A stretch of 64,000 nucleotides of DNA from positions 1-64,000 of the forward strand of contig JAETSX010000011.1 of assembly GCA_021769425.1 (NCBI GenBank), in the 5' to 3' direction. Shown piece after piece: positions 6,101 through 39,466 of the stretch. The notes below the pieces were generated by a model. It was not told the origin of the DNA. It saw only the letters and a list, made by a program, of their open reading frames with translations, and did no database searches. The number at the start of each line of letters is the position of its first letter. The stretch's first letter is position 1. The position numbers and the translations under genes were made by a program. This DNA comes from Eubacterium sp. (GTDB taxonomy: Bacteria > Bacillota > Clostridia > Lachnospirales > Lachnospiraceae).

Positions 6101-6697
6101 AGCATCCAAATCTACCATGTCTTTCAGATCTTCATAATCCCATGTTTCAATTTTCTGAATCTCATGAGAAGTACGGAATCCATCAAAGAAATTAATGAAA
6201 GGAAGATGTCCTTCTAATCCAGCGCAGTGCGCTACCGGAGTTAAGTCCATAACTTCCTGTACGGAAGATTCGCATAGCATTGCTGCACCGGTCTGACGAC
6301 AGGCATATACGTCAGAGTGATCACCGAAGATGTTCAGCGCATGGGTTGCCACACAGCGTGCAGATACGTTGAATACGCCCGGAAGCCCTTCACCGGCAAT
6401 CTTGTACAGATTGGGGATCATCAGCAGCAGTCCCTGAGATGCGGTATAGGTGGTTGTCAATGCGCCTGCTGCCAGGGAACCGTGCACCGTGCCCGCTGCA
6501 CCTGCCTCAGACTGCATCTCTGTTACCTGAACAGTCTGTCCGAAAATGTTCTTTCTTCCCTGTGTTGCCCATTCGTCGGTAGCTTCTGCCATAACAGAAG
6601 ACGGTGTGATGGGGTAGATGGCTGCAACATCGGTGTATGCATAAGATGCATGCGCTGCTGCATGATTTCCATCCATGGTTTTCATAGATCTTTTCAT
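3161..6697 (-). CDS. nifJ: Pyruvate:ferredoxin (flavodoxin) oxidoreductase
   Basis: A single-chain homodimeric PFOR of 1178 residues, full length for the family. It oxidises pyruvate with CoA to acetyl-CoA and CO2 and passes electrons to ferredoxin, the central step of anaerobic pyruvate use. The N-terminus carries the pyrimidine-binding domain (AAHASYAYTDVAAIYPITPSS), followed by the gamma domain (about 410-600). Two ferredoxin-type clusters follow at about 690-770 (CIQCNICSYVCPH and CTGCGSCANVCPG). The C-terminal TPP domain has a single cluster region (GACGGCGETPY) and GDGWAYDIGFGG with SNTGGQSSKATPTGA. The start at 6697 follows GGAGG by nine bases. It is monocistronic, with its own promoter at 6816-6844. 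Its acetyl-CoA would feed acetate kinase (ackA in this window). Confidence 0.98.
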   Translation of the reverse strand: MKRSMKTMDGNHAAAHASYAYTDVAAIYPITPSSVMAEATDEWATQGRKNIFGQTVQVTEMQSEAGAAGTVHGSLAAGALTTTYTASQGLLLMIPNLYKIAGEGLPGVFNVSARCVATHALNIFGDHSDVYACRQTGAAMLCESSVQEVMDLTPVAHCAGLEGHLPFINFFDGFRTSHEIQKIETWDYEDLKDMVDLDAIAAFRKNALNPNHPRQDGSAQNPDIFFQTRESCNSTYDALPAIVQKYMDKVNEKIGTDYKLFNYYGAADADRIIIAMGSVCDTIDETIDYLMAKGEKVGVVKVRLYRPFSKDALIAAIPDTVKTIAVLDRTKEPGSLGEPLYLDVVAALKGTKFDAVKITSGRYGLGSKDTTPGQIIAVYNNTEKERFTIGIYDDVTNLSLEVKEDPVTTPEGTINCKFWGLGADGTVGANKNSIKIIGDNTDMYAQAYFDYDSKKSGGVTMSHLRFGKKAIKSTYLIKQANFVACHNPSYVRKYNMVQELVPGGTFLLNCSWSPEELETHLPGQVKRYIAENDIQFYTIDGIKIGKEIGLGGRINTVLQSAFFKLAAIIPEERAIELMKAAAKATYGKKGDKIVQMNYDAIDAGATGVVKIEVPASWKDAQDESFAKVATGDRKDVVDFVNDIQIPVNGQEGNKIPVSVVKKYENGQTPSGSAAYEKRGIAVDVPVWNPENCIQCNICSYVCPHAVIRPVAMTEAEASNAPEGMQMLPMTGMPEYKFSMTISALDCTGCGSCANVCPGKKGEKALTMQNCEANVGEQAFFDYGLTTEKKVDVVEKFKETTVKGSQFKQPLLEFSGACGGCGETPYAKLITQLFGDRMYIANATGCSSIWGNSSPSTPYTVNEKGHGPAWSNSLFEDAAEFGYGMLLAQKAIREKLRTKVEALVAEGKNADVAAAGKEWLDTYGIGAVNGTATDKLVAALEACGCDASKEILEEKDFLAKKSQWIFGGDGWAYDIGFGGVDHVLASGQDINVMVFDTEVYSNTGGQSSKATPTGAIAQFAAGGKEVKKKDLASIAMSYGYVYVAQIAMGADYNQCIKALAEAEAYPGPSLIIAYAPCINHGIKVGMSKAQTEEKNAVEAGYWHNFRFNPALKEEGKAAFSLDSKAPTGDYKAFLNGEVRYNALARFNPERAEKLFAVSEKHAKERYEYLNKLITLYGEN

Positions 6698-11961: not shown

Positions 11962-12549
11962 CTATTTTTCCATAAGTCTTTTATTTACGCTATATTTTAC
12001 AACGCCAATACACTGGGAAATGAATACAATCAAGGCTGTCAGCGCAACTAATGATACCATCTCAACCATGTTACAAACAGTGCAGAATCCTGCAAACGCC
12101 AGAATCCCAATGATGATTTTCATTGTTACCTTCTTACAGTGTGCCTTTTCCTCTCTGTCAAGTTCCCGGCTAATGCTTTCTACTGGTGCAAGTCTCCATA
12201 TCAAAATGGATATTGCCAGAATGATAACCCACGCATCTGTCATGGGGAACTGATACCTGCTACTTACCACCAATGACACCGTCTGTACTACAACTGAACA
12301 CAGAAAACATGCACTAAAGCTGTCCAAATGAACACCACCTGCATAAGTCCTCAGTAACATGAATATTACTGTAAAAACTATGAATTCAAGAATCATATGC
12401 AAATATATCGATATGCTTAAACAAACCACAAAACAGCACAACATTTCCAGTCCAATTTGAAAACCATATTGATATACTGCATATAATTCTTCCGAAACCG
12501 CACCAGCACTTATAACATATCCCGTTAATTTTTCCGATAACCGCCGCAT
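11962..12549 (-). CDS. agrB: AgrB-type cysteine protease (accessory gene regulator B)
   Basis: An integral membrane protein of 195 residues, about six TM segments, of the AgrB family. It cuts the C-terminal tail from AgrD and forms the thiolactone of the autoinducing peptide. The signature RTYAGGVHLDSFSAC is present, with the catalytic His and a Cys seven residues later, the usual spacing. The start ATG at 12549 follows the stop of the preceding 49-residue AgrD gene by a single base, so the two are co-translated. The product of one would be the substrate of the other. Nothing follows it except the IS256 remnant. Confidence 0.95.
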   Translation of the reverse strand: MRRLSEKLTGYVISAGAVSEELYAVYQYGFQIGLEMLCCFVVCLSISIYLHMILEFIVFTVIFMLLRTYAGGVHLDSFSACFLCSVVVQTVSLVVSSRYQFPMTDAWVIILAISILIWRLAPVESISRELDREEKAHCKKVTMKIIIGILAFAGFCTVCNMVEMVSLVALTALIVFISQCIGVVKYSVNKRLMEK

Positions 12550-12550
12550 A

Positions 12551-12700
12551 TTAAAGCTTTTTCATCGTTTTCAGGGCTTCCGGCATCTTCGGTTGATGAT
12601 AGATATAACAGCATGCACTGTCTGCTGACATTTTGCTAAGTTTCAGAGATACATTTGCCAGTATTATTGCCGGCTGAGCTTTTACATTTTTAGATTTCAT
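12551..12700 (-). CDS. agrD: AgrD-type cyclic lactone autoinducer precursor (49 aa)
   Basis: A short ORF directly upstream of agrB, with AAAGGGGA eight bases before its ATG (12700). It encodes a typical AgrD layout: a Lys-containing amphipathic N-terminus (MKSKNVKAQPAIILANVSLK), a middle part with the ring-forming Cys region (SADSACCYIYH) and a charged tail (QPKMPEALKTMKKL). QPKxPEALK is the conserved motif right after the signal part in clostridial AgrD proteins. The ring would be a five-residue thiolactone made from one of the two adjacent Cys residues (CYIYH or CCYIY); which one is used cannot be decided from sequence. Two adjacent Cys at this place is not usual. Confidence 0.88.
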   Translation of the reverse strand: MKSKNVKAQPAIILANVSLKLSKMSADSACCYIYHQPKMPEALKTMKKL

Positions 12701-12787
12701 AATAGGAATCCCCTTTCATTTATTTTCCTAATACTATATTACAAAAAAAACGCCTATTCGCTTTTATTGTAAAAAAACCGAGTGTTC

Positions 12788-12828
12788 ATGTAACTTTTTC
12801 TAAAAGTATGACTGCCTTTTCTAAAAAG
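12788..12828 (-). promoter_or_regulatory. Direct-repeat operator candidate in front of agrD
   Basis: Two imperfect direct repeats stand one helix-turn pair apart: on the plus strand, ATGTAACTTTTTCTAAAAG (12788-12806) and ATGACTGCC-TTTTCTAAAAAG (12808-12828). LytTR regulators such as AgrA bind paired direct repeats of this spacing. The site lies 90-130 bases upstream of agrD, where the LytTR regulator encoded in the same locus would be expected to act. Binding is inference. Confidence 0.45.
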
Positions 12829-12849
12829 CTATAACCTTCCTAAACATTA

Positions 12850-13246
12850 CTATTTCCCTCCGGATTCATATTTTTTTAAATACCAGTTCCATAAAATGAG
12901 ATCCTCTATTTTTTTCTGATATTTCTGCAAATTATCCGTCGTTTCTATATAATCGTATACACCTGTTTCCAACACCGAAAAAATATCCTGTGCAGTTCCC
13001 CCCCTCTATAATTGCTAGAATCGGTATCGAATGTCCCAATTTTCCTTTTATCCTTATAATCGGCTCAAATATTCCCTTTTTCGTTCTCTCTCTATCAAAA
13101 TGCATAATAACGACATCTGCCAATGGATATCTATTCATTTCAAGCCGATGATAGGTACACCATATCAACTCATATTTCTCTTCTGCTATTCGATTCGTAA
13201 TCCCAAACAATTTTTCATCATCGCTACATAATAATACCTTATCCAT
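12850..13246 (-). pseudogene. Receiver-like (CheY-fold) protein, split by a 7-G tract
   Basis: From ATG 13246 (GGAG eight bases upstream) the frame encodes MDKVLLCSDDEKLFGITNRI and continues in the pattern of a receiver domain (ADVVIMHFD at the phospho-acceptor strand, HSIPILAII at the next). At a run of seven G (12998-13004) the frame shifts and soon ends at 12932. Dropping one G restores a clear receiver ending, GTAQDIFSVLETGVYDYIET, and runs to a stop at 12850, giving 131 residues. The run may be a sequencing error, a recent mutation or a phase-variable switch. The gene lies between the kinase and agrD on the same strand. The usual acidic pocket is incomplete, so phosphorylation is doubtful. 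Confidence 0.6.
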
Positions 13247-13344
13247 ATAAAATCTCCACAGCACTTGAATTACTAATTCATCTTTTTATTCCACCATTTT
13301 TCCTCATATAATTTTTCATGTAATTATACCTAGTTTTCATGTGA

Positions 13345-14652
13345 TTATCCATGATCTCCATATAGTAATACACGGATTCTAAACTGCTTCGGAACAGAAT
13401 CTTCGATTATTACAGTTCCATGATATTTTGCGACTGCCCTGTATACAGAAGATAATCCAATGCCATGGTTCCTGGCATCAGGTTTTGTTGATTTTAGCCT
13501 CTGATTCTTCGTTTTTATCAGTTTTCCTTCATAACTATTCGTTACAAACAGTAGCAAATTATTTTTGTCATACTTCATTTTGACTTTTATGTATTTCTCC
13601 CCTTCTGCCTTATGTGCAGCTTCCACTGCGTTCTCCAACAAATTGCCAAGAATTAAGCAAATATCTGCACCTTTAAATGGCATTATCATGGGAATACATA
13701 TATTAATCAAAAAATCTATTTCTTTCTCTTTGGCAGCTACATACCAATATCCAATCAGGGAATCAATGACAATGTTCCCACTGTTTGAAATCTCAGCGAT
13801 AATCATTCCACTCTCACCTATGATTTCATTAACAAAACCAATAATCTTTTCATATTCTCTTTTTTCCGCATAGGCAAGAATTGATATAAGATTATTCTTC
13901 ATATTGTGTTTTACATCCCTTAATTGAAGCATAGAGATTTCCCTTTCCTGCTGATGACGATTACATAGTTCCAATTGCTGTTCATATACGGACATCATAC
14001 GTCTCAATCGTAAATCATCTGTCAGTTTCATATAAATGTAGAAAATCAGTACGTTCATTCCTAGCAAGATGATTACTGTAATCGCTGAATTAAGGCGGGT
14101 ATGATCACTATTTACCATAAATCCAAGCATAAATATATTGTTCATAATATAGATGCTTCCTGTTGGAATCAATACAAGCATAATACTGTACTTGGCTGTC
14201 AGTTCTTCCATTTCATCATCCGTAAATACCTTTTTCAGTGCAATAATCACCACAAGGAAAAATGCCTTTGAGATAAATGAGCCGCCAGGCTGAACAAAAG
14301 CATACTTCTCACAATAAATCATCAATATGTAACTGCATAGGGTTTCCATCAGCATCCAGATTGCATTAAATGCAATTACAAACACACACTTATTCCACCA
14401 CATTCCTTCATAAACAGTTACAACTGCAAACATCGTAACTATAACTGTAATAGCAATATTGATATATGCCGGAAAACTAATAGGCATTGGAATTGACAAC
14501 TGCCATAAGACAAACATCGCCATACCAGCTATAGCCAGCCTTTTATCGCTTTTCCTTGTAAAAAATATATCAAAATAATAAAGAAACAAATATACCGCAA
14601 ACATACTCAGCAATATATCTCCCCCATAAGATAAAGCCTTACACATCCACAT
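13345..14652 (-). CDS. AgrC-like sensor histidine kinase (GHKL)
   Basis: 435 residues. The N-terminal half (about 1-220) has six or more membrane helices, the sensing part that in AgrC binds the peptide lactone. A coiled dimerisation region with LRDVKHNMKNNLISIL carries the phospho-acceptor His. The GHKL ATPase domain has the N box (ILGNLLENAVEAA) and G box (KPDARNHGIGLSSVYRAV). The start overlaps the response regulator gene by 14 bases, showing a common transcript. Expected ligand: the cyclic peptide from agrD in the same locus. Confidence 0.93.
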   Translation of the reverse strand: MWMCKALSYGGDILLSMFAVYLFLYYFDIFFTRKSDKRLAIAGMAMFVLWQLSIPMPISFPAYINIAITVIVTMFAVVTVYEGMWWNKCVFVIAFNAIWMLMETLCSYILMIYCEKYAFVQPGGSFISKAFFLVVIIALKKVFTDDEMEELTAKYSIMLVLIPTGSIYIMNNIFMLGFMVNSDHTRLNSAITVIILLGMNVLIFYIYMKLTDDLRLRRMMSVYEQQLELCNRHQQEREISMLQLRDVKHNMKNNLISILAYAEKREYEKIIGFVNEIIGESGMIIAEISNSGNIVIDSLIGYWYVAAKEKEIDFLINICIPMIMPFKGADICLILGNLLENAVEAAHKAEGEKYIKVKMKYDKNNLLLFVTNSYEGKLIKTKNQRLKSTKPDARNHGIGLSSVYRAVAKYHGTVIIEDSVPKQFRIRVLLYGDHG

Positions 14653-15373
14653 AAAATGTGTCCTCCATTGAGCAATATTGTTCGCTAATTATTTTCCGTC
14701 TATCTTCACTAATGGAAATCTTTTTCCCATTGTCCATTACTACAAAATCATAAGCCTGTCCCTTTATATGCTTATAATTTACAAGAAAAGATTGGTGAAC
14801 ACGCAAAAAAGAAACCTTACAAGCTTTCAAGCTATTCTCTATCTCATTTAATTTTCCATATAACTCGAAGGTCTCTTTTTCCGTCACAATAAATACTTTC
14901 CGTTTATTACTTTCAAAATAAAGAATATCTCGAACTGTTACTTTATGGTTCATACGCTGGTAACTGTACCGGAAATAAAAGTCCCCGCTGTTTATATCCT
15001 CATAGGCCGCCTTAAAACATGTTTCCATTTGTATCTCGCTTACTGGTTTTACCAGAAACTGAAATGGACGCACCGCAAAGGATTCCTTCATGTAGTTCTC
15101 GTGACTGGTAATATAAGTAATCAAAACATTTTTATCATATGTCCTGATTCTCTTAGCTACTGAAATCCCATCCTCTTTTTCCATTTCTATATCCAGATAA
15201 ATGATATCAAAACTTTCCCCTGTCGCAACCGTATCTGCCAAACTTTCTCCATTCCAAAATACTTCTATATCTGTATCTACAAAATTCCGCTTCGCTATCT
15301 TCTGGAGCAACATTTCCAGCCTACCTGTTGTTTGAATATCATCATCACAAATTGCTATACTCAGCATTCTCAT
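14639..15373 (-). CDS. LytTR response regulator (AgrA-like)
   Basis: The receiver domain (about 1-120) has the acidic pair CDDD near the N-terminus, phospho-acceptor Asp in IIYLDIEME, Thr/Ser at TYITSHE and the Lys in FLVKP. The C-terminal LytTR DNA-binding domain (about 140-240) starts HKVTVRDILYFES and includes the typical FLRVHQSFLVNYKHI. The start chosen is ATG 15373, which overlaps the stop of the XRE gene (TGATG); the ATG six bases further in is also possible. It is the partner of the adjacent kinase and the likely activator of agrDB. Confidence 0.94.
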   Translation of the reverse strand: MRMLSIAICDDDIQTTGRLEMLLQKIAKRNFVDTDIEVFWNGESLADTVATGESFDIIYLDIEMEKEDGISVAKRIRTYDKNVLITYITSHENYMKESFAVRPFQFLVKPVSEIQMETCFKAAYEDINSGDFYFRYSYQRMNHKVTVRDILYFESNKRKVFIVTEKETFELYGKLNEIENSLKACKVSFLRVHQSFLVNYKHIKGQAYDFVVMDNGKKISISEDRRKIISEQYCSMEDTFYVDV

Positions 15374-15756
15374 CAACTCTCTTCCCTGTCATCCTTTTGT
15401 CTATCGTCCTTTTTTCGCCTTTCGCTTGCTTTCTTAACTGTTTGTATCATTGACCATATCATTTCTTGGTCATATGGATCTAAATCTTTATATATTTCAA
15501 CTAAGTCGTAGTACTCGTCCAATATTTCATTCATTTTCATCTGCCTTTGTATATCCCTTTTTACATCCGAAACCCCCAACAAATAATCAGTTGTCACATT
15601 AAAATACACCGCTATTTTCTTAAGAATATCCACCTTAATCAATGTGATATCCCTCTCATATTTACTAAGCATTTGTTGTGTTATTCCCAATTCTGCTGCA
15701 AGAATATCTTGTATTAGCCCTCGTTTATTCCGAAGCTGTTTGATACGACTCTCCAT
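15373..15756 (-). CDS. XRE-family helix-turn-helix regulator
   Basis: 127 residues. The N-terminal Cro/C1-type HTH (about 3-60: IKQLRNKRGLIQDILAAELG, then QQMLSKYERD and TTDYLLGVSD) is followed by an acidic helix and a very basic C-terminus (KKASERRKKDDRQKDD). It is the first gene of the operon with the LytTR regulator and AgrC-like kinase, with a one-base overlap. It probably controls this operon or the RiPP genes 360 bases upstream; the target is unknown. Confidence 0.9.
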   Translation of the reverse strand: MESRIKQLRNKRGLIQDILAAELGITQQMLSKYERDITLIKVDILKKIAVYFNVTTDYLLGVSDVKRDIQRQMKMNEILDEYYDLVEIYKDLDPYDQEMIWSMIQTVKKASERRKKDDRQKDDREES

Positions 15757-16118
15757 AATTACTTACCTCTTAAATGTACTGTAGTTCTATGCTACTCCAA
15801 TTTTATTGTCACAATACAAATAATAGAAGTAATAAATTATAATTTTAAGGCAAATACAAAGGCAAGCAGTGCAAATGCACTGCTCACTTTCTACCGCTTT
15901 TAAAAACTCATAAATTTTCAATAAAAAATAACTGACTTTCAACAAATAATACCACTATTTCATGTTGGCTTACTGATTGCCTTTTAATACTAATCCGCTG
16001 CCTCCATTAATTTTCCCTTACAATATATTCCTCTGTTACGGATTCTGAAGCAAAAAACAATTTTCCAGAGTATTTTCTCCTTCCTATCCATTTATAAATA
16101 TATCTTCTACATTCTTTT
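15757..16118. other. Intergenic region between the agr and RiPP operons
   Basis: A 362-base AT-rich gap. It holds a perfect 7 bp hairpin GCAGTGC-AAAT-GCACTGC at 15866-15883, usable as a weak terminator for the RiPP operon. The promoter of the XRE-agr operon must also lie here, but no convincing -35/-10 pair stands out. An open stretch of about 38 codons follows the radical SAM stop on the minus strand, without a start or ribosome site. Confidence 0.5.
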
Positions 16119-17441
16119 TTAATTATGAACAAATACATTGTTATACATATCTTCCACTATCATATTTGTAACATTACAAAAAGTTTTTTCCATTTTGCCT
16201 TTTAAGCTGCCACTTTCGAGTAAAGCTCTGGCCCTACATCCTCCCTTACAATTTTCACTAGCCGGACAATTCGCGCATCCTTCAAGATCTTCTTTCTTCA
16301 GATTTCGTAATTCAATAAACACCTTACTCTTACGCCAAATTTCCAAAAGGTCTTCGCTAAAAACATTACCTGCACAATATTCGCTATTATTTGAAAACAA
16401 ATTACAAGGATACACATCCCCATTAATATCTATAAAAATATTCGTTGTTCCAGCAGAGCAAATATATTCCGGTCCTTTTTTGTACCTATATAATCCCATT
16501 CCCTTTCTAAATGCTTTTGAAATTGAGAAACCTTTTAACGTGTTAATCCTGAAATCCTTTGATTGTTTTTCAGAAAGCATCAATGATGAAATATCTGGAT
16601 CCTGATTTACATTCAAAATTTCACTCATTTCTATCTCATCTGCATGCATATCCTCTGCTAACTGCAACATATCACAAAAATACTTCTCATTTTTATTATT
16701 AATAGTAAATGAATAGCCTATCGATAAATTATTTTCTCTGCATACATTGCTAAATTCCATGGCCTTTTTTAAAGTTCCCGCTCCACGTATAAAATCATTC
16801 ATCTCTTCGTTATGTCCTTCTACGCTTATCCGTATCAAAACATTCATATTTGACAGTTTTCTAATTGTCTCATCCTGTATAATCTGACCATTCGTAAAGA
16901 TCACTACTCTAATATTCCAATCATTAAAAGCTTCTACAATCTCAACTAAATTAGGATGTAAAAATGGCTCTCCCCCAGTTAATACCACCGCAAGAGTACC
17001 TAATTCTCCCAATTTTGATGCAATTAAATGCGCCTTATTCAAATTCAGTATTGATTGCTCATTTACATGCTCCCCCTGATAACAATGTTTGCAGTTTAAA
17101 TTACAATTTTGTGTAATCTCTATAGATGCAGTTTCCAATGAAGTTACTAATCCAATAAGACTAACAAAAGCTGCATTCTCAGGCTCATCGGTAAAATATG
17201 GCGTCGCGAATATTGTATTACAGCATTCCATAACATCTCCATACAATTCATCGTATTCGCATTCCTGATTTTCAATCTGTAAATTCATCGCTATTTTTTG
17301 ATGCTCATTTTTATAAACCAATACTTCTTTGAGAATTCTAGAACTTGTTTCATTCAAAGTTAACATAGAATCATTTTCCAAATCATATAAAACCGATTCT
17401 CTATCATAATTTTTCCATACTACACCTTTTCTCAAAAGCAT
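16119..17441 (-). CDS. RiPP maturase: PqqD-like domain + radical SAM + SPASM
   Basis: 440 residues. The N-terminus (1-100) resembles a PqqD-type peptide-recognition domain (YDLENDSMLTLNETSSRILK). The radical SAM core has the cluster motif CNLNCKHC at Cys113, Cys117 and Cys120, followed by VVLTGGEPFLHP. The C-terminal SPASM domain has Cys328, 346, 356, 389, 392, 398, 402 and 422 (CANCPASENCKGGC), enough for two auxiliary [4Fe-4S] clusters. Enzymes of this build make thioether, ether or C-C crosslinks or epimerise residues in a peptide. Which reaction occurs here cannot be told; the precursor has a single Cys, at its very end. GGAGG stands seven bases before the start. It is the last gene of the operon. 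Confidence 0.93.
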   Translation of the reverse strand: MLLRKGVVWKNYDRESVLYDLENDSMLTLNETSSRILKEVLVYKNEHQKIAMNLQIENQECEYDELYGDVMECCNTIFATPYFTDEPENAAFVSLIGLVTSLETASIEITQNCNLNCKHCYQGEHVNEQSILNLNKAHLIASKLGELGTLAVVLTGGEPFLHPNLVEIVEAFNDWNIRVVIFTNGQIIQDETIRKLSNMNVLIRISVEGHNEEMNDFIRGAGTLKKAMEFSNVCRENNLSIGYSFTINNKNEKYFCDMLQLAEDMHADEIEMSEILNVNQDPDISSLMLSEKQSKDFRINTLKGFSISKAFRKGMGLYRYKKGPEYICSAGTTNIFIDINGDVYPCNLFSNNSEYCAGNVFSEDLLEIWRKSKVFIELRNLKKEDLEGCANCPASENCKGGCRARALLESGSLKGKMEKTFCNVTNMIVEDMYNNVFVHN

Positions 17442-17494
17442 AATTTACCTCCAATCTAACCGTATCTCTAGTGTTAGTCCATTGTATTATTCCT

Positions 17495-17824
17495 TTATTT
17501 ATAAAAAATAATTTTATAATATGCCTTGATCATCTTATATTTAAACGTTCCCTTCACCAGAATAATATTAACTCTTGCAAGACTTATAACCAGATCAATT
17601 AAATCCTGAACAATATTTTCAGGCGCTTCTTCATATCTTTGCGCTATAATAATAGAGATATCCCTTATTGACTTAATTCCATCAAATTCAAGGAACATTT
17701 CATAAGCTATTGAACTTAGCACAAACCTCTGTTCAAGCAAATAATCATACAAAATTATATTGTCTTCCATTAATTTCATCTCTACAAAGCTTGGCTTCTC
17801 CACTACAAATTCATCTGTAATCAT
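17495..17824 (-). CDS. Small PqqD-family (peptide-recognition) protein
   Basis: 109 residues. The region FVLSSIAYEMFLEFDGIKSI, then a helix with RYEEAPENIVQDLIDLV, has the winged-helix pattern of PqqD proteins (a long hydrophobic strand, W/F.L..G..S, a two-helix end). Such proteins bind the leader peptide of a RiPP precursor and deliver it to a radical SAM enzyme. The start at 17824 is preferred because AAGGAG lies just upstream; the ATG at 17848 overlaps the upstream gene and has no ribosome site. It lies between the two radical SAM genes. Confidence 0.75.
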   Translation of the reverse strand: MITDEFVVEKPSFVEMKLMEDNIILYDYLLEQRFVLSSIAYEMFLEFDGIKSIRDISIIIAQRYEEAPENIVQDLIDLVISLARVNIILVKGTFKYKMIKAYYKIIFYK

Positions 17825-17837
17825 AACACTCCTTCTA

Positions 17838-19139
17838 TTATGATGCATATGTGGCCCATGCCTTCATATATAAATTCTGCAACTGTCTCCTATTAAGATT
17901 TTTTGTTTCCATTACTGTATCAAAGAAAGTATAATTATCCCAATTTTCGGTGAGAAGCTTAATACCTAAATCATCCTTTCTTTCATATACAGGCGTCCCG
18001 GGCAAAGGAGTCAAAATAGCAAATTTACAAGATGTATATCCACCAGATATTGTTTTTAAATATTTACCAAATCGTATCGTTTTTTCACAAGTTTCCATAT
18101 TATCATCTGGATGTCCCAAAATAAAAGAACAGACCACTGTTATTCCATGTTTCAAAAAAATTCTAACTGCTCTTTCAATAGTATCCGTTGTAACATTTTT
18201 ACCAATTTTCTTTAATATTTCATTATCACCAGACTCAGCGCCAATCTGCACATGATGACACCCAGCTTTTGCCATTTCTTCAGCAACTTGATCCGTAACT
18301 GTATTTGCACGGGCCTCTGCTTGCCACGCAATATTCAAATTTCTATTTCGTATTTCCCTGCAAATCTCAATACAATGTTTTTCACTAGCAGTAAATGTGT
18401 CGTCTGCAATAAATATTTTCTTTATCCCATACGTTTTGTGCAGCAACTCAATCTCATCTACTACATTTTTTACGCTTCTCATTCTATACCTGCCACCTGC
18501 TATCGCTCCGGCTGAACAAAAAATACATTTATAAGGACAACCTCTTCCTGTCAAGACAATTCCTGGTTCCTGATATTTATCAATTTTAAACAAATCCCAT
18601 GCCGGGAAATCAATGGAATCTAAATCCTGAATAGGTAATCTAGACTCAGTTTTTATTACTTCTCCATCTTTATTAACAAATGCAATTCCGGCAACATCTG
18701 ACAAATCCCCGCCTTCCTTAATACAGCCCAGTAACTCAACAATCGTTTTTTCCCCTTCAAAAATGGATACAATATCAACATCTCCTTGCTTCAGCACTTC
18801 TTCATAAACAAACGAAGCCTGGGGACCCCCCATTATAACTACGACTTGATTTCCAAACTGTTTCTTTATTTCACATGCAATTCTCAAGCCATTCCCATGA
18901 TTTGCTATAAAAGAACTAATTCCCACTATTTTGGCTTCGCATTCAATAATCCGATTAATTATTCCAGCAATCGTTAATTTATCAATTCCTACATCAACCA
19001 AATCCACAGAATAGCCCGCATTTCTAGCAGCTGAAGCCAAATATCCTAATCCCAAAGGCGGATTAGCATACATTAAATTTTCTGCAAATAAATCTTTCAT
19101 CACTACCGGCTGCGGATTAATTAATAAAATGTCTGTCAT
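17838..19139 (-). CDS. Cobalamin-binding radical SAM enzyme, RiPP-modifying
   Basis: 433 residues. An N-terminal B12-binding fold (about 1-140: ILLINPQPV, YANPPLGLGYLASAAR, VVIMGGPQASF) is followed by a radical SAM core with CPYKCIFC (Cys201, 205, 208) and a C-terminal part with LTPLPGTPVYE. This is the class that methylates unactivated carbons, and some members catalyse other chemistry. The start at 19139 is supported by GGAGG eight bases upstream and overlaps the upstream PqqD gene by ATGA (translational coupling). A carbon-methylated core, as in the Ala/Val-rich proteusins, is a reasonable guess given the Ala-rich precursor, but this is inference. Confidence 0.92.
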   Translation of the reverse strand: MTDILLINPQPVVMKDLFAENLMYANPPLGLGYLASAARNAGYSVDLVDVGIDKLTIAGIINRIIECEAKIVGISSFIANHGNGLRIACEIKKQFGNQVVVIMGGPQASFVYEEVLKQGDVDIVSIFEGEKTIVELLGCIKEGGDLSDVAGIAFVNKDGEVIKTESRLPIQDLDSIDFPAWDLFKIDKYQEPGIVLTGRGCPYKCIFCSAGAIAGGRYRMRSVKNVVDEIELLHKTYGIKKIFIADDTFTASEKHCIEICREIRNRNLNIAWQAEARANTVTDQVAEEMAKAGCHHVQIGAESGDNEILKKIGKNVTTDTIERAVRIFLKHGITVVCSFILGHPDDNMETCEKTIRFGKYLKTISGGYTSCKFAILTPLPGTPVYERKDDLGIKLLTENWDNYTFFDTVMETKNLNRRQLQNLYMKAWATYAS

Positions 19140-19555
19140 ACTAAACTCCTCCAATTCATATCTATCACATTTTTTTGATCACATTCCGCTATAAATTCAA
19201 GACAATCTTTTACTGCCGTTTCCTGAGCCACATCATATTCTTTTACAATATAATCAACAATATCTTTAAGTGTATTTGAGCCATCACACAATTCCCAAAT
19301 TCTTGCAGAAACATTTTCAAGCAATACACTAATGCCACCGTCACTTATATCAGGGTTTTCCCCTAATAATTTCACTTCTTCTTTATTTTTTAGCACTTCT
19401 TCCTTGTTAACTGCGAATTCTCCCGAAAGAGCAAGCGCTCTCCCTTTGGAAATTCCATAAACAAAAATAGAATCATCTTCATCACTTTTATAACGCCAAA
19501 GGATTGATTTCCTTTTCGGAGTTAACATCAGAAGTTCTCCTGTTTCATTTTTCAT
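19136..19555 (-). CDS. PqqD-like protein with N-terminal extension
   Basis: 139 residues. The C-terminal half (about 65-139) matches PqqD: GGISVLLENVSARIWELCDG, then SNTLKDIVDYIVKEYDVAQE and LEFIAECDQKNVI. The N-terminal 60 residues (RRKSILWRYKS..., a domain of unknown role) are not part of the PqqD fold. The start at 19555 has AAGGGGG nine bases upstream; the gene overlaps the end of the M50 protease gene by 11 bases and the B12 radical SAM gene by four. Probably the recognition partner of the B12 enzyme encoded right after it. Confidence 0.85.
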   Translation of the reverse strand: MKNETGELLMLTPKRKSILWRYKSDEDDSIFVYGISKGRALALSGEFAVNKEEVLKNKEEVKLLGENPDISDGGISVLLENVSARIWELCDGSNTLKDIVDYIVKEYDVAQETAVKDCLEFIAECDQKNVIDMNWRSLV

Positions 19556-20216
19556 TATCTTTGCCCCCTTTTTCTTGTACTTCAATTTTTTTATCAATTG
19601 GCATTACCAATTTAAATCCAAACATATATAAAATATATACCAAAATAGACATCATACACAATGAGAATGCCTTAAATCCCATTTTTTTAAAAATCTCATA
19701 TGCTCGTCCGCCATCGCATTTTTTATTGGGTAACAATGACAATACATTTATTAGTAAAAATGCACCTATGAAAATAATACTTACAGGACTATTTAACCAT
19801 TTAATGGAAAGCAAAAGAGCAACTAGGCCTATCCCTGTCAGTATTACAGGCGCCGACAATAAAATGCCTGTCTTGTCTAGATTTTCAATTTTCCTGGAAC
19901 GCTCAAAATGTGTTCTAGCTCCAAATGTATATGGAAGAAAGCTCACAAAAATTGGCTCATACGATAAAAATCTTGCAAATGATATATGTATAGATTCATG
20001 CCATGCAATAGAGAAAAAAATCATTTGCATTATCAGGAATATGTATGCATAATAGCAAATACTTACATCCAAGAAAAGCAATAACGCACTTGAAAATACT
20101 GTTACAACAATCATTTGAGGATAATATATTCTATTTATCATCAGAAATATTTTCATAATTAAATGCACATTTGACTGTTCTTTTTCAATATTTAATATAA
20201 TTCCTCTTTCTACCAC
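19545..20216 (-). CDS. M50-type intramembrane zinc metalloprotease
   Basis: 223 residues with about five or six membrane helices. Zinc motif HESIH (73-77, HExxH) lies in a TM helix, and the second conserved M50 motif is present as LLPNKKCDGGRAY (about 161-173, the N/P..DG type). Site-2 protease relatives accompany several radical SAM RiPPs, such as the epipeptide system of Bacillus, and are proposed to cut or release the modified peptide. The GTG start at 20216 has GGAGG six bases upstream; the nearby ATG is followed at once by a stop. It is the first gene after the precursor in the operon. Confidence 0.88.
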   Translation of the reverse strand: MVERGIILNIEKEQSNVHLIMKIFLMINRIYYPQMIVVTVFSSALLLFLDVSICYYAYIFLIMQMIFFSIAWHESIHISFARFLSYEPIFVSFLPYTFGARTHFERSRKIENLDKTGILLSAPVILTGIGLVALLLSIKWLNSPVSIIFIGAFLLINVLSLLPNKKCDGGRAYEIFKKMGFKAFSLCMMSILVYILYMFGFKLVMPIDKKIEVQEKGGKDNEK

Positions 20217-20249
20217 TTCATACCTCCACAGAATAAACGCAGTGTCAGA

Positions 20250-20273
20250 ATACTATTCATTAGTTAATAGTAT
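20250..20273 (-). terminator. Hairpin between precursor and protease genes
   Basis: ATACTATT-(8)-AATAGTAT is a perfect 8 bp stem just after the precursor gene and before the protease ribosome site. It has no T run, so it is more likely a leaky terminator or 3' protection element that raises precursor mRNA over enzyme mRNA. Confidence 0.45.
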
Positions 20274-20288
20274 CTATTGTTATAAAAC

Positions 20289-20471
20289 TTAGCACCATTT
20301 AGCCAATGCAGCCGCTGCTACCGTAGCTCCTGCCGATGCGGCTGGTGTAATTGCTGGTGTAAATGCAGGAATTGCTGCCGCACTATAAGCTTCATCGATT
20401 TCAAAGTGATTCTCATCCAACTTAACTTCCGGTTTAATATAGGGTTTTAAATTACGTTTTTTTTCAGACAT
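20289..20471 (-). CDS. RiPP precursor peptide (60 aa, Ala/Pro-rich core ending in KWC)
   Basis: A 60-residue ORF with a strong ribosome site (TAGGAGGA), directly upstream of the maturation genes. The leader part (about 1-30) is charged: MSEKKRNLKPYIKPEVKLDE then NHFEIDEAYS. The C-terminal part is almost only Ala, Pro, Thr, Ile, Val and Gly (AAAIPAFTPAITPAASAGAT, then VAAAALAKWC), with one aromatic Phe37, one Trp59 and a single terminal Cys60. There is no repeat of a Cys motif as in sactipeptides and no Ser/Thr/Cys pattern of a lanthipeptide. The core is hydrophobic and could insert into membranes. The cut site may be near AYSAAA. Function (antimicrobial or signal) is unknown. The role as precursor follows from size, composition and neighbours. 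Confidence 0.85.
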   Translation of the reverse strand: MSEKKRNLKPYIKPEVKLDENHFEIDEAYSAAAIPAFTPAITPAASAGATVAAAALAKWC

Positions 20472-20645
20472 AAAATTATCCTCCTAATTCTTTCTATTCT
20501 GACACTGCATATTCTGACCTGATTAAGCACATCAGGATTTTGTTATGATAAACTATTGGATATTTGTCATCACTATTATGTACACTCTCAATTTTACCAA
20601 AAACGAAAGTTTACCATAGAATTCTGAATGCTAATACTAATAGTG

Positions 20646-20676
20646 ACTAAAAACAAATATCAACCTCGTTTTTAGT
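20646..20676 (-). terminator. A/T stem-loop after the zinc-ribbon gene
   Basis: ACTAAAAAC and GTTTTTAGT form a perfect 9 bp stem with a 13-base loop, 15 bases after the stop of the zinc-ribbon gene. It probably ends that transcript, so the precursor operon would have its own promoter in the 170 bases that follow. No consensus promoter is clear there. Confidence 0.5.
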
Positions 20677-20690
20677 TCCTCTATTACGTC

Positions 20691-20885
20691 TTATTCCTTT
20701 AACAAGTTGACGTTTTCAATAAAAAAAGAAATTTCTCCACATTTTGGGCAAACAGCAATCTGAGGTTTTACTATCTTTTTACCAAATATTCCTTTCCGAG
20801 TAACGCTTATCCCATAACTTTGCATATCAACTTTTATTTCCAATTCTTCTTTCATTTCATTATTGCATCTTACACATTTACGCAT
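20691..20885 (-). CDS. Small zinc-ribbon protein
   Basis: 64 residues with two Cys pairs, CVRCNNEM near the start and CPKCGEISFF near the end, the layout of a zinc ribbon. The middle (DMQSYGISVTRKGIFGKKIV) is basic. GAGGTG stands five bases upstream of the ATG. Small proteins of this kind occur beside many Firmicutes gene clusters as presumed nucleic-acid-binding proteins; a role in the RiPP cluster is not shown. It is divergent from gntR. Confidence 0.7.
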   Translation of the reverse strand: MRKCVRCNNEMKEELEIKVDMQSYGISVTRKGIFGKKIVKPQIAVCPKCGEISFFIENVNLLKE

Positions 20886-21100
20886 TTCATCACCTCATTC
20901 CTATTTATTTTTGGTATATAGTTAATTTGATGCTGGTACTAATATACTCTACTATCTGCTTCCTTTTTTCTTCGTGTAAAAAAATCGTTTTATGGTGTAA
21001 CTTTTCCTTTATGTTGCTTCTATACATCATTTTCCCTCAAATTTTGATGCCACTGATATTATGCCAGATCAATCTTTAGTATTTGAATTTCAGTTTTTTA

Positions 21101-21129
21101 TTGACATGTGTTCTGTACAGTGCTATACT
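21101..21129 (+). promoter_or_regulatory. Consensus promoter of the gntR-ABC operon with operator-like repeats
   Basis: TTGACA (21101-21106), 17 bases, then TATACT (21124-21129). Half-sites GTTCTGT within the spacer and its inverted partner ACAGAAC (21162-21168) after the -10 bracket the start site, the usual arrangement for self-regulation by a YtrA-type GntR repressor. Confidence 0.8.
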
Positions 21130-21181
21130 GTTATTGTTTATACTATACACACAAATATAGCACAGAACGGTGGTGATTCAT

Positions 21182-21559
21182 TTGGAAATAATAGTAAGTA
21201 ATAAATCAAGCCACCCTCTCTATGAACAGATTGCCGACCAAATAAAAAAGGCTATTATGAACGGAGAATTACAAGCAGGAGAAGCAATACCTTCTGTACG
21301 TTCCTTAGCAAAATCATTGCATATCAGCGTTTTAACTGTTCAAAAGGCCTATGCAACATTACAAGACGACGGTTTCATTGAGACAACTGCAGGGAAAGGG
21401 TGTTATGTATCTGCACAAAACCAGGATTTTTACCTCGAAGAACAGCAAAAAAAAATTGAGGAATATTTTCTCAAAGCTATAGAGATTGCACGCATGAGCG
21501 GAATAACCTTTGAAAGATTAGTTGATTTGCTCACACTTTTATGTCAGGAGGATGAATAA
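21182..21559 (+). CDS. GntR-family (YtrA subfamily) transcriptional repressor
   Basis: About 125 residues. The N-terminal winged HTH has PLYEQIADQIKKAIMNGELQ, then AGEAIPSVRSLAKSLHISVL and AGKGCYV. The short C-terminal helix region without a large effector domain is typical of YtrA. The TTG start at 21182 gives the usual N-terminus (M-E-I-I-V-S-N); GTG at 21170 is the alternative. The downstream ABC genes follow without a gap. YtrA regulators usually repress such transporters until cell-wall stress or a peptide antibiotic appears. Confidence 0.9.
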   Translation: MEIIVSNKSSHPLYEQIADQIKKAIMNGELQAGEAIPSVRSLAKSLHISVLTVQKAYATLQDDGFIETTAGKGCYVSAQNQDFYLEEQQKKIEEYFLKAIEIARMSGITFERLVDLLTLLCQEDE

Positions 21560-22423
21560 ATGGGAGATAATACTTTAGAAATCCAAAATTTATCAAAAAA
21601 TTTCAAAGATTTTAACCTAAATAATTTGAATCTTATAATCCCTCGAGGTGTAATAATGGGATTAATTGGAGAGAACGGAGCGGGAAAATCCACAACCATT
21701 AATTGTATTCTTAATGAAATCAAAAAAACTGATGGCGATATTTATATCTTCGGAAAAGATCACATCACTGCTGAGACTGAAATTAAAGATAAAATAGGTG
21801 TTGTATTTGATGAAAATCACTTTCCGGATATTTTTACTCCAAAAGAAATTGGTAAATGTATGTCCGGAATTTATTCGAATTGGGAATGGTCAACATATAA
21901 TAGTTATTTAAAACAATTTGAATTGCCTGAAAATAAAAATATAAAAGATTTTTCTAAGGGGATGAAGGTAAAATTAGCTTTTTCCGTTGCACTTTCCCAC
22001 AAAGCTGAATTTTTAATTCTGGACGAAGCTACCAGCGGTCTCGATCCTATAGTGCGCGATGATATCCTTGATATTTTAATTGATTTCGTCCATGATGAAA
22101 ACCACTCTGTATTAGTATCCTCTCATATAACAAGTGACTTAGAAAAAATTGCAGACTATATCACTTTTCTTCACAAAGGGAAAATAGTTTTTAGTCACAT
22201 GAAAGATGATCTTATTGATAATTATGGTATCCTTAGTTGTGGAGCATTTATATTTGATTCACTCGACAAATCAGAAATCATTGCCTACCGTAAAGAAGAT
22301 TACCAGTATAAAATTCTCGTTAAAGACAGAAAAAAAGCCACTCGAAAGTACCCAGAAGCAATTATTGAACCTGCAACCCTCGAAGAAATCATGCTATTTT
22401 ATGTAAAGGGGGAATTACAATGA
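21560..22423 (+). CDS. ABC transporter ATP-binding protein
   Basis: 287 residues, with Walker A GENGAGKST (about 38-46), signature DFSKGMKVKLAF, Walker B FLILDEATSGLD and switch His in VSSHITSDLE, all intact. The C-terminal extension of about 80 residues is common in the antibiotic-resistance/YtrB group. The ATG follows the gntR stop at once, and the gene overlaps the permease gene by four bases. A likely role is export of, or self-protection from, the RiPP next door, or response to external peptides. Confidence 0.93.
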   Translation: MGDNTLEIQNLSKNFKDFNLNNLNLIIPRGVIMGLIGENGAGKSTTINCILNEIKKTDGDIYIFGKDHITAETEIKDKIGVVFDENHFPDIFTPKEIGKCMSGIYSNWEWSTYNSYLKQFELPENKNIKDFSKGMKVKLAFSVALSHKAEFLILDEATSGLDPIVRDDILDILIDFVHDENHSVLVSSHITSDLEKIADYITFLHKGKIVFSHMKDDLIDNYGILSCGAFIFDSLDKSEIIAYRKEDYQYKILVKDRKKATRKYPEAIIEPATLEEIMLFYVKGELQ

Positions 22424-23064
22424 AAGGACTATTGATCAAAGATTTTTTAACACTCAAGAAAAAATATGGCATTACAAGAGTAATTATAGATCTTGCCATT
22501 ATAATCGCTCTCATGATTGTTCTGGAAAGCGCTGGTTCCATTTATATAAGTTTCCTTCTTCTTCCTCTTGAAATTACATCTATGATAATTTCACTAACTA
22601 CATGTGATGAAGAATGGAAGTGGAACAAATATGCAATATCATTACCAATTACTAAAACAAAAATTGTAAAAAGCAGGTATCTCTTGGCAGGAATTTTATC
22701 GCTTATTGGATTAATAATCGCTATTATGGTAAATACAATTTCTTACTTTTGCTTTCCAAAATACAAATACGGCTTTTATCTTTTCATAGCCTTTGCCTCC
22801 TTTGCCGTTATACTCTTATTTTTGGCCTTTATATTACCGTCAACTTATTCTTTAGGAGTTAATGCAGGATTTGCCGTTATGATAGTACTATTGGCAATAC
22901 TTTTAGGATTAGGATTTTGGTCTAGATTAACTAACAATTCGATTATGTGGTTTGTAGTTGACAACTTTGAGTATTGCATTGTTATCGGATTTATATTAGA
23001 CATATTGATATGTATATTGTCATATATTCTTTCAAAAACTTTTTTCAAGAAAAAACATATCTAG
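22420..23064 (+). CDS. ABC-2 type transporter permease
   Basis: 214 residues with six predicted membrane helices and the N-terminus MKGLLIKDFLTLKKKYG typical of small ABC-2 permeases paired with YtrA-type regulators. CDEEWKWNKYAISLPITKTK is the conserved cytoplasmic loop after the second helix. It shares ATGA with the ATPase gene. One permease and one ATPase gene would give a homodimeric pair. Confidence 0.9.
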   Translation: MKGLLIKDFLTLKKKYGITRVIIDLAIIIALMIVLESAGSIYISFLLLPLEITSMIISLTTCDEEWKWNKYAISLPITKTKIVKSRYLLAGILSLIGLIIAIMVNTISYFCFPKYKYGFYLFIAFASFAVILLFLAFILPSTYSLGVNAGFAVMIVLLAILLGLGFWSRLTNNSIMWFVVDNFEYCIVIGFILDILICILSYILSKTFFKKKHI

Positions 23065-23320
23065 TTTCAGGAAATCATTTATATTGTATGTAAATTTCAT
23101 TTCCCAACGGCCCCATTCTCATCAATAATAGGGATGGGGTCCATTCTATGACTCTTTAACACTTCCCCTGTATTATGCACCGAATAAATCAGTAACGGTG
23201 TGAAACCGCATAGTTCCTTGACACTTTGATACGTTTGCTTTCATCTATCAAGTGATAGAAAAAGAGCTTCTGATTTAGTATAACTAAGGCGCCAAAAACA
23301 ATACCATAAAGAGAAGCTCT

Positions 23321-24492
23321 ATGAATAGATTAAAAGATACCGCTCTGAAAAGCAACCACTATATGAAAATAAATTTTGGAGGCGGCGACTCTCCTCCGAT
23401 GCCGGACTCCTTTTGAACAGGGAGTTCGCTGTTAAACTCGGGCTAATCAAACTCATATATCGTCTGTTTCAGCCAAATGTTACAGCCACTTTCCGTATTC
23501 ACATGGAGCCTGAAAACCTGTCGCAGATGATTTTTCAGACAATTGCAGCGTATTTTGATGATGACTGTGCAGATAAACTTACGGTTAATCCTGTATTTAC
23601 AGCAATCCTCGAATAAGAAGTCCTTGCCTCACAGCCGACGGTTTCCAGGTTTTTCCATCATATGGACGAATCCACACTCAAACAGTTCAACGTGATAAAG
23701 CGGAAGATGCGGGATATTGTATACGCTATTCAACCGCTGAAACAAATGGTTTTTGATCTTGTTTTAATCCTACTCAATACTTACGGAGGAGGGGGAAGCT
23801 TTCAATTATCATTACCAGGCACACGGCTATCATCCACTGCAGTGTTTTGACGGAATTACCGGCGATCTTCTTAAAAAGGAACTACAGGATGAAACCCATT
23901 ATTGCAGTAAGGATGCCGATCAGTTTATACTCTCCTTATAATACCGAACAAAACATCCATCTCTTCCCATGCAATAAAAGAAAATATGGTTGAATATGCG
24001 GTCACATATGGCGAGTTTGAATAACAGGCAGGTATCTGGCCGCATCCCCGCCGCGCGGTGTTCAAGATAGCGTATCCGGCCAACCAGATGGTTTTCATGT
24101 ACACATTTGTCATAACAGCCATGGAGTCTGGGCCGCATCAGATCATCCGATTTTACTGCGAGTGCGGCAAAATGGAAAACTTCATCAAGGAGAGCAAAAA
24201 CGGTTTTGATTTTTCCGCTGTCAGCAACAGTTCAATGCCCGTCAATGCAAATCGGCTTCAGCTGCATTTGCTTGCCTATAATTTGTTCAACTGGCTTCAC
24301 CATTTAGCGCTTACGGCAAAAATGAAAAGACTACAAATTGACGCCGTCCACCTTAAATTCCTTAAAATAACCGCAAGAGTGGCTCGCTCTGCAAGACATA
24401 CGACTTTCACGCTTTGTAGCGGCTGTCCACATAAGAGTGAGTTTTCCGAAACGCTGCAAAATATTCAGCAACTACAGCCACAGCTGGAATAA
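23321..24492 (+). pseudogene. Degraded IS1380-family transposase
   Basis: Fragments in several frames follow an IS1380 transposase in order: NFGGGDSPPMPDSF, then NREFAVKLGLIKLIYRLFQP, HHMDESTLKQFNVIKRKMRD, LLNTYGG, ENMVEYAVTYGEFE, FKIAYPANQMVFMYTFVIT and finally NFIKESKNGFDFSAVSNSSM to LQNIQQLQPQLE with a stop at 24492. Nonsense changes (for example at 23614-23616), frameshifts and an internal deletion of roughly 40-60 codons around 23940-23970 inactivate it. It marks the right side of the accessory island. Confidence 0.88.
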
Positions 24493-38261: not shown

Positions 38262-39466
38262 TTATGATATTCTAACCGTCTGCGCCACCGCTTCCTGCTC
38301 TTTCTTTTTATCCTCTGTCAGATGCGTATATGTGTCCAGTGTCACGGATGTAGAAGCGTGTCCGAGGTTCCGGCTCACAATCTTCACATCAGCCCCGGCA
38401 GAGTAAGCAAGGCTTGTGTAAGTATGTCGAACCATGTGCAGACAAAAATTCTCAATCTTTTCTGTATGGTTTTCTTCTGCATCCTTGTTGTTCCGCTCCA
38501 TAATCCTTTTTATTAGTTCCCGGAATCCCGGCTCATTCCATACATTCCCGGATGTATTCACGAACAGAAAGCCGGATATATGCCCCCTGATATTCCCGGG
38601 ATCATCCACATAAGGCAATTTTGCAGCAGGGGGTACACTTTGCATTTTCAGCTTCAGGAGCGTTTTTCTTACTACGCTATTCATTGCAATACTACGAATG
38701 GAAGTCTTGCTTTTGGGAGAAGCTACTGCCATAGTGAAATCATAATCCGCTTTTCTGTATCGGTTCACGGTCTTATTTATGGTATTATCCTTGAAATTCA
38801 CATCATCCCATGTCAATGCTGCCATTTCCCCGATTCTCATGCCCGAATTAAACAGAACAACAAACGCCGGGTAACTGTATGAATACCGCTCACTATTCCT
38901 GACATATCCCATAAACAAATCAATCTGATGCTGTTCTATTGCTGTTCGTTTCTTACTCTCTGTCTGTGGCACTTGCAAATTCTTTGCAGGATTCTTGATA
39001 ATAATATCATCATCCAAAGCGCATTCAAATACAATATTCAAACAGCTTTTAAGTTTGGACATAGTAGAGTGCTTTTTGCCGTCCTGAACCATTTCATTTA
39101 TAATTCTCTGACAGTCAGCTTTTGTAATCTTCGCAATCTGCTTTTTCCCGATAGTATCCTTGATATAAGTATTGTAATATGATTTATAATTTGTACAAGT
39201 TGTGGCTTTCCTGCCGCTCTTTGCAAAAGTTTCCATCCAAAAATCAAAATAGGCGTTTAATGTCATTCTGGCATTCAGCTTATTGCCCGGTCAATCCTGC
39301 ATAGCAAATCATTTTCCTGTTTCCGCAATTCTACCAAATCAGGAGCGGTAATTGTGATGCGTTCGCCGTCAATCATCTTTCGGAACATATACCGCTTATT
39401 CTTTGAGTCGTAGTATTCGCCAGTTTTGAGATTTCTGCCCCGGTTGTCTTTTCTCTCTTCTGCCAT
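38262..39466 (-). pseudogene. Tyrosine recombinase/integrase, split by a one-base frameshift
   Basis: The N-terminal part (ATG 39466 to stop 39275) encodes the AP2-like arm-binding domain (MAEERKDNRGRNLKTGEYYD, YMFRKMIDGERITI). The rest runs from about 39287 to 38262 in another frame and holds the SAM-like core-binding domain and the catalytic domain with Arg (NSGMRIGEMAALTWDD), Lys region, HMVRHTY, the second Arg, GHAST and Tyr in LDTYTHL. One extra base at the GGG (39286-39288) would join them smoothly as IDRGNKLNARMTLNAYFD. All catalytic residues are intact. It is a sequencing error, a recent inactivation or a frameshift-controlled integrase. Confidence 0.85.

Follow-up and report, generated by a model that had tools for sequence, protein, structure and literature searches.

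A putative RiPP gene cluster that pairs a B12-dependent and a SPASM radical SAM enzyme in a low-GC island of a Eubacterium sp. contig

Radical S-adenosylmethionine (SAM) enzymes C-methylate Val, Ile, Phe and Pro in ribosomally synthesized and post-translationally modified peptides (RiPPs), and PoyC and the BotRMTs carry out such C-methylation on aliphatic residues (excerpts of PMC11285071). A B12-dependent radical SAM enzyme of the pbs cluster makes a cross-link (excerpts of PMC12257519), MgmA, another enzyme of this type, produces 2-methylglutamine (excerpts of PMC11796369), and SuiB and WgkB make Lys-Trp links (excerpts of PMC9012708). Here, we describe a gene cluster that encodes a B12-dependent and a SPASM radical SAM enzyme next to an alanine-rich precursor peptide, in a stretch of 64,000 nucleotides (nt) of a Eubacterium sp. 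genome from the Lachnospiraceae (contig JAETSX010000011.1), hereafter the window. We found no description of a product of such an enzyme pair in the accessible parts of the openly licensed literature; the first-pass annotation of this DNA likewise named no class with this enzyme set and such a core.

The cluster consists of six genes on the minus strand (16119-20471), transcribed in the order P0001, P0002, P0003, P0004, P0005, P0006:

20289..20471, minus strand: precursor P0001 of 60 amino acids, with the leader motif Y11-I-K-P14-E-V and a C-terminal half rich in Ala and Pro that ends in KWC
19545..20216, minus strand: M50-like intramembrane metalloprotease P0002, GTG start, named from its motifs; candidate leader or C-terminal peptidase
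19136..19555, minus strand: PqqD-family RiPP recognition protein P0003 (Pfam PqqD), with an N-terminal extension of ~65-75 amino acids
17838..19139, minus strand: B12-dependent radical SAM enzyme P0004, motif CPYKCIFC (Pfam B12-binding and Radical_SAM)
17495..17824, minus strand: second PqqD-like protein P0005, just below the Pfam PqqD cut-off
16119..17441, minus strand: SPASM radical SAM maturase P0006, motif CNLNCKHC (Pfam Radical_SAM and SPASM)

The single strand and the full gene set are as first annotated; the overlap of genes claimed at the same time holds for two of the five junctions (P0002/P0003, 11 nt; P0003/P0004, 4 nt), whereas the other three are gaps (P0001/P0002, 72 nt; P0004/P0005, 13 nt; P0005/P0006, 53 nt). 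A ribosome-site-like sequence precedes all six starts, and at the precursor gene AGGAGG is followed by an 8-nt spacer and ATG. Judged by sequence, family assignment is firm for both radical SAM enzymes and P0003, marginal for P0005 and absent for P0002 and P0001. Gene features typical of a RiPP locus, namely a short, leader-bearing precursor gene adjoining maturases and a peptide-recognition domain, are found here, with leader recognition read from the PqqD family.

We consider it rather probable that this cluster makes a hydrophobic, C-alkylated and SPASM-modified RiPP. The reaction sequence, sites and activity proposed below are a model built on the genes, their families, the genomic island and the relatives with the same enzyme pair, all of which are observed. 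Under this model, the PqqD-type proteins would hold the YIKPEV segment of the P0001 leader, and P0004 would alkylate unactivated carbons of the aliphatic half, with the P-A-F/I-T repeat and the Ala run as candidate sites. P0006 would add a further modification, most probably a cross-link or another newly formed bond, and the K58-W59-C60 tail would be its likeliest site because the only Cys and Trp of P0001 are located there. P0002 would then remove the leader at the membrane, and an adjacent ABC (ATP-binding cassette) system would export the product or protect the producer. We expect the mature peptide to be hydrophobic and probably directed at membranes, with its production plausibly tied to a neighboring agr circuit. 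The cluster offers an example, open to testing, in which B12 and SPASM radical SAM enzymes would both act on one peptide with a core nearly devoid of the usual reactive residues, and in other loci the same two enzymes accompany small hydrophobic peptides of unrelated sequence. Should the Ala-rich half be C-methylated, this would represent a ribosomal route to helix-stabilised peptides; should only the tail be changed, carrier-peptide biosynthesis would extend to an encoded residue.

The precursor is as first described, that is, 60 residues with a core almost free of Cys and Ser. The last 30 residues of P0001 include 14 Ala and 3 Pro but a single Ser (Ser46, with Ser30 just before), the repeat P35-A-F-T-P39-A-I-T-P43-A lies within this core, and the lone Cys is the last residue, Cys60, following Trp59. 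P0001 matches no Pfam or NCBIfam family, so that no homologue in a known RiPP class, named at the outset as a finding that would refute the first-pass reading, came to light; searches of plasmids with P0001 and P0002 likewise gave no match. Proteusin membership was considered and rejected, given that the leader shows no nitrile-hydratase or Nif11-like family match.

The terminal Cys brings to mind the pearlins, in which the ribosomal peptide serves only as a carrier. Under such a scheme, Cys60 or Trp59-Cys60 would be alkylated or rearranged, and the M50-like protease would release a product of one or two residues. In the tmo pathway, the B12 radical SAM enzyme TmoD acts on a Cys-derived C-terminal residue of the carrier, which the membrane protease TmoG releases (excerpts of PMC9303977), and TglG and TmoG are named as M50 proteases (excerpts of PMC10885120); in P0001, Cys occurs once, as the last residue, and the cluster includes an M50-like protease. 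However, the Eubacterium genome lacks a DUF692/MNIO match, which two control genomes did yield, the tmo gene list in the accessible part of PMC9303977 contains no SPASM enzyme, unlike this cluster, and none of the five precursor candidates found in related loci ends in Cys. The last observation also weakens the ring to Cys60 suggested by the first-pass annotation. The search for the ligase-type family PF04738 is to be read with care, as it returned nothing in the Eubacterium genome and nothing in 14 control genomes either; a ligase would be unnecessary if the Cys is encoded. We regard the pearlin-like route as unlikely. Similarly improbable is a bolder pair of proposals: either pearlin-like chemistry proceeds on the encoded Trp59-Cys60 without an aminoacyl-tRNA ligase, such that the SPASM and B12 enzymes rebuild these two residues and the M50-like protease releases a small metabolite, or, equally bold, many of the 14 core Ala residues are alpha-methylated by the B12 enzyme, which would yield a ribosomal peptaibol-like peptide with MgmA as the precedent (excerpts of PMC11796369).

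In the favored reading, the C-alkylation is assigned to P0004. This protein has strong Pfam matches to B12-binding (8e-19) and Radical_SAM (5e-29) and scores 106 bits against TIGR03975, the RiPP C-methyltransferase subfamily, for which the cut-off is 282. Its closest B12 enzyme is that of locus L185 (53% identity over 418 residues), and the two are sisters in the tree with support of 100/100. By analogy with the described enzymes, methylation by P0004 is likely, although not certain because a B12 radical SAM enzyme also cross-links (excerpts of PMC12257519), so that methylation, the B12 chemistry put forward at first, has less support.

For P0006, the Pfam matches to Radical_SAM (4e-22) and SPASM (4.7e-13) are accompanied by a weak N-terminal PqqD-like match (14.9 bits, below the Pfam cut-off). 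The SPASM domain is defined by its cysteine pattern, and this definition, applied to P0006, gave the full pattern (C-x9-15-G-x4-C / CxxCx5Cx3C / C422), as is expected of a sactipeptide or ranthipeptide maturase. In its AlphaFold model (mean confidence score, pLDDT, 70.9), the nearest solved folds are CteB, SuiB and SkfB, at 14-20% identity in the fold comparison, so that, judged from the model, P0006 is nearest in fold to cross-linking maturases. EpeE chains appear only at fold ranks 48-50, no EpeE model is among the NCBIfam matches listed (25 of 80), and the M50 motifs of P0002, HESIH and CDGGR, come without a family match; epipeptide membership was set aside as improbable, and the kinship with epipeptides to which the first-pass annotation pointed through the M50 protease has lost support.

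These folds raise the possibility of a sactipeptide or ranthipeptide variant, in which P0006 would link Cys60 by a single thioether to a residue further upstream, the B12 enzyme having a decorating role only. CteB and SkfB, both thioether-forming, are among the nearest folds, phmmer of P0006 finds SkfB at 5.7e-14, and the closest B12 enzyme, that of L185, adjoins an AlbA-like SPASM enzyme and a Cys-bearing precursor (Cys13, 16, 19 and 22). With its lone Cys60, P0001 allows one Cys-to-carbon bond at most. Among the NCBIfam matches listed (25 of 80), P0006 reaches no curated family cut-off, and its top model is the Lys-Trp cross-linking WgkB, itself far below cut-off; moreover, the precursor of L071 has no Cys, which implies that Cys is dispensable for the enzyme pair. 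The thioether variant is possible and the most credible of the alternatives, albeit clearly less probable than the C-alkylated RiPP. The WgkB score (157.7 bits, with the cut-off at 650, short of WgkB-level assignment), together with SuiB among the nearest folds, would also fit a Lys-Trp cross-link at K58-W59, as in streptide or tryglysin. However, Lys and Trp are adjacent in P0001, unlike the spaced Lys-Trp motifs of streptide and tryglysin, and the precursors of L186 and L047 contain no Trp, so we find this link doubtful. Both readings draw on fold similarity and on matches to models whose cut-offs P0006 does not reach.

P0002 has HESIH at residue 73, LPNKKCDGGR at residue 162 and hydrophobic stretches, and an uninformative AlphaFold model (pLDDT 48). 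P0003 matches Pfam PqqD at 1.2e-12 over residues 76-131 and P0005 at 2.9e-4 (21.5 bits against a cut-off of 23.4 bits). Protein P0020 of locus L187 was tried as a P0002 homologue and rejected, having no BLAST match and EExxH where HExxH is expected. In the same locus, the gene at 3445-4428 is flanked by the SPASM gene and by a gene in which PqqD and B12 radical SAM are fused. It encodes a membrane protein that has EEFFH instead of HExxH and carries a TPR segment at its C-terminus, and may be an altered M50-like protein.

The combination of the two enzymes is not unique to the window. A P0004-related B12 enzyme adjoins a SPASM enzyme in six Bacillota loci (L041, L071, L185, L186, L187 and L191), and the same pairing is present in L009, on plasmid pRapFH23a of Rhizobium acidisoli. 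In a seventh Bacillota relative, L047, the radical SAM partner has no Pfam SPASM match and was not counted as a SPASM locus. In the phylum sample, P0004 had a match at 1e-50 in 21 of 398 genomes (own included), and a second radical SAM gene lay in the same operon in L041 and L047 out of 20 regions; SPASM-like matches 5-6 kb away (L038, L039) were left uncounted. Among eight phylum neighborhoods viewed by eye, L033, L037, L040 and L042 carried cell-wall, lipid or sugar genes and the other four no peptide-maturation partner. In the class sample, 10 of 391 genomes (own included) matched the P0004/L071 profile at 1e-70, with a SPASM-type enzyme in four of the 10 fetched regions (L185, L186, L187, L191). 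A genome-collection scan with two patterns only, taken to the best 80 of 161 relatives, gave two loci with a strong P0004-type gene, L071 and L058, the latter counted as L041 (75 of 80 200-mers shared); the archaeal L085, a weak P0004-type match of 78 bits, was left uncounted. Single-protein pattern scans of viral contigs with P0004 and P0006 found no relative, and none of 34 viral loci had a SPASM-type match. A single-protein scan of an 84,980-species genome collection with P0004 also found none, in a search so insensitive that it missed L071 in the same collection.

The relatives share further components with the window. PqqD-like matches stand beside, or are fused within, L047, L186, L187 and L191 (that of L186 above the Pfam cut-off), proteases are found in three loci (S8 in L071 and L185, C39 in L041), and ABC ATPase matches occur in all seven Bacillota relatives. 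The best model of the L185 SPASM enzyme is AlbA (220 bits, cut-off 850). On the tree of B12 enzymes, in which long branches are flagged for L046, L047, L048 and L191, RiPP-linked labels cluster more than shuffled labels do (shuffled mean 9.8 changes; one of 500 shuffles as low as 5). In L186 (7081-14754), B12/SPASM-type pairs, two in all, surround an ABC transporter, and a single precursor candidate is present. In L009, one frame (4613-6541), adjoining a SPASM gene, a B12 gene and a further radical SAM gene, runs from an aldo/keto reductase through a long series of 14-residue repeats of the FAVTPNMAMSPRGA type to a PqqD-like end (by eye), and looks like an enzyme-precursor fusion. L188 (9025-13413) has three successive B12 radical SAM genes next to SDR-like (short-chain dehydrogenase), glycosyltransferase-like and large NRPS-like (non-ribosomal peptide synthetase) genes, as judged by eye, and no SPASM-type match; it represents a different pathway.

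Small precursor candidates were found for L041, L047, L071, L185 and L186. They have no Pfam family match, and NCBIfam gave only a stray MamC match (E 0.012) for L041. The fraction of A, G, V, I, L, T, S and P in the C-terminal 60% is 0.65-0.89 in these five and 0.81 in the window; it is at least 0.68 in five of six precursors (window included) compared to 49 of 323 control open reading frames, a comparison that is partly circular, as the candidates had been picked for their tail composition, besides their position and ribosome site. A YxxP motif within the first 20 residues is present in four of the six precursors (three of five excluding L047) compared to five of the 323 controls, YENPEL and YMTPEL having been noticed before YxxP was counted. 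Leader recognition of the YxxP type by RiPP recognition element proteins occurs in lasso peptides. The cysteine content varies, with none in L071, one each in L041 and L047, two in L186 and four in L185. The L186 candidate ends in GPLPGPT, similar to the IPGPAVPG end of L071.

Several observations weigh against the reading of a C-alkylated, SPASM-modified RiPP. The best NCBIfam model for P0004 is BchE (197.8 bits against a cut-off of 481) rather than a RiPP methyltransferase, and P0002 matches no M50 family in Pfam or NCBIfam, so that of the annotated M50 protease only the motifs HESIH and LPNKKCDGGR stand. L187 and L191 yielded no precursor candidate, and the precursors found elsewhere show no visible alignment with one another and, unlike P0001, no C-terminal Cys. 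The RiPP-linked B12 enzymes do not form one clade (11 rows with five changes, at least three forced by the starred branches), and their single origin was therefore rejected. The SPASM partners are not orthologues, P0006 being 29% identical to one L186 enzyme over 320 residues, 28% to the L185 enzyme and 20-25% to the SPASM-type partners in a 10-sequence alignment. The separate PqqD proteins of L071 and L041, named by eye, have no Pfam family match. ABC ATPases were also matched in at least nine of 24 control loci, and LytTR and kinase matches adjoin one of the seven relatives (L071), LytTR being weakly matched in one of the 24 controls. Because the B12 enzymes are not a clade, the SPASM partners are not orthologous and ABC genes occur in controls as well, the pairing, which is scattered over the tree of B12 enzymes, seems to be a combination that recurs and not a single family. 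What stands of the first-pass reading is a B12/SPASM RiPP cluster, well supported by families and relatives; the details of its chemistry and the epipeptide kinship do not share that support.

The cluster is embedded in a low-GC island. The guanine plus cytosine (GC) content is 0.32-0.355 in every 2-kb step from 12 to 24 kb, and 0.34 over 12000-24000 as a whole compared to 0.462 outside. Together with the cluster, the island contains an agr quorum-sensing operon and divergent GntR/ABC genes, and an inverted repeat brackets the precursor gene:

11962..15756, minus strand: agr-type operon with AgrB, AgrD, a GHKL kinase, a LytTR regulator and an Xre-type regulator (Pfam, TIGR04223)
21170..23064, plus strand: GntR regulator, ABC ATPase and ABC2 permease, divergent from the cluster (Pfam)
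20239-20263 / 20484-20508: inverted repeat of 25 nt, 14 nt of it perfect

AgrB is matched by Pfam at 2e-31 and AgrD by TIGR04223 at 46.6 bits (cut-off 19). Being on the same strand and in the same island, the agr operon is a candidate control of the cluster; AgrB adjoins none of the seven relatives. The GntR/ABC genes are a candidate for export or self-protection. The ABC ATPase is 46% identical to the one divergent from the L186 cluster; the two permeases are not similar, and their kinship was rejected. The inverted repeat is a candidate regulatory or mRNA element: no shuffle of the region out of 500 gave 13 nt or more, and in sliding windows over the 64 kb, 14 nt were reached in two of 254, both at other places, because the step grid cuts this repeat. 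A further GTCAGAATA copy lies just upstream, in direct orientation.

Apart from the own genome, the genus search (28 genomes) gave no match to P0006 at E 1e-40. A class sample (390 further genomes) gave none at 1e-45, and a family sample (377 further genomes) gave five at 1e-27. With P0004, a family sample of 396 further genomes gave no match at 1e-70. The island was probably acquired, because its GC content is low and P0006 and P0004 are rarely or never matched in the sampled genomes at these thresholds. A degraded or inactive island, whose acquired genes have ceased to yield a product, would agree with the absence of P0006 matches from the genus search and with the strongly deviant GC. Yet the six reading frames are all intact, as are the catalytic cysteine motifs, and each start has its ribosome-site-like sequence, which makes decay very improbable. 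Elsewhere in the window, in another GC dip at 38-42 kb, the gene at 38265-39266 is tyrosine recombinase-like (by eye, from the N-terminus).

Compared to the polytheonamide enzymes PoyB and PoyC and to the bottromycin BotRMT, this locus has in common a B12-binding radical SAM enzyme that presumably acts on aliphatic residues of a hydrophobic core; it differs in the leader without a family match, the SPASM partner, and the score of P0004, which is below the TIGR03975 cut-off and higher against BchE. With CteB, SkfB, AlbA, SuiB and WgkB, P0006 shares the radical SAM core and the full SPASM cysteine pattern, whereas its scores among the NCBIfam matches listed (25 of 80) are below the cut-offs and P0001 has neither a Cys-rich nor a WGK/KxxxW core. 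The pearlin tmo pathway to 3-thiahomoleucine is alike in its carrier with a C-terminal Cys, B12 radical SAM enzyme and membrane metalloprotease (excerpts of PMC9303977); in the window, the Cys is encoded, a SPASM enzyme is present and the genome has no DUF692 match. The epipeptide locus (EpeX, EpeE, EpeP) combines a radical SAM enzyme with an M50 protease (excerpts of PMC10885120), to which the M50-like P0002 would correspond, whereas the window adds a B12 enzyme and separate PqqD proteins, and EpeE ranks low among the folds of P0006.

Among the loci found here, L185 (genome G448, of the same class as the window) is alike in its B12 enzyme, SPASM enzyme, small precursor candidate and ABC genes, and differs in having an S8 in place of an M50 protease, an AlbA-like SPASM enzyme, a Cys-rich precursor candidate and no separate PqqD match. 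L071, from Clostridium frigidicarnis DSM 12271, shares with the window B12 and SPASM-type enzymes, ABC genes, a LytTR regulator, a kinase, a leader of the same type (YMTPEL) and an aliphatic precursor core, which in L071 ends in Pro/Gly. It differs in its two B12 enzymes (36% and 35% identical to P0004), its S8 protease and its precursor without Cys.

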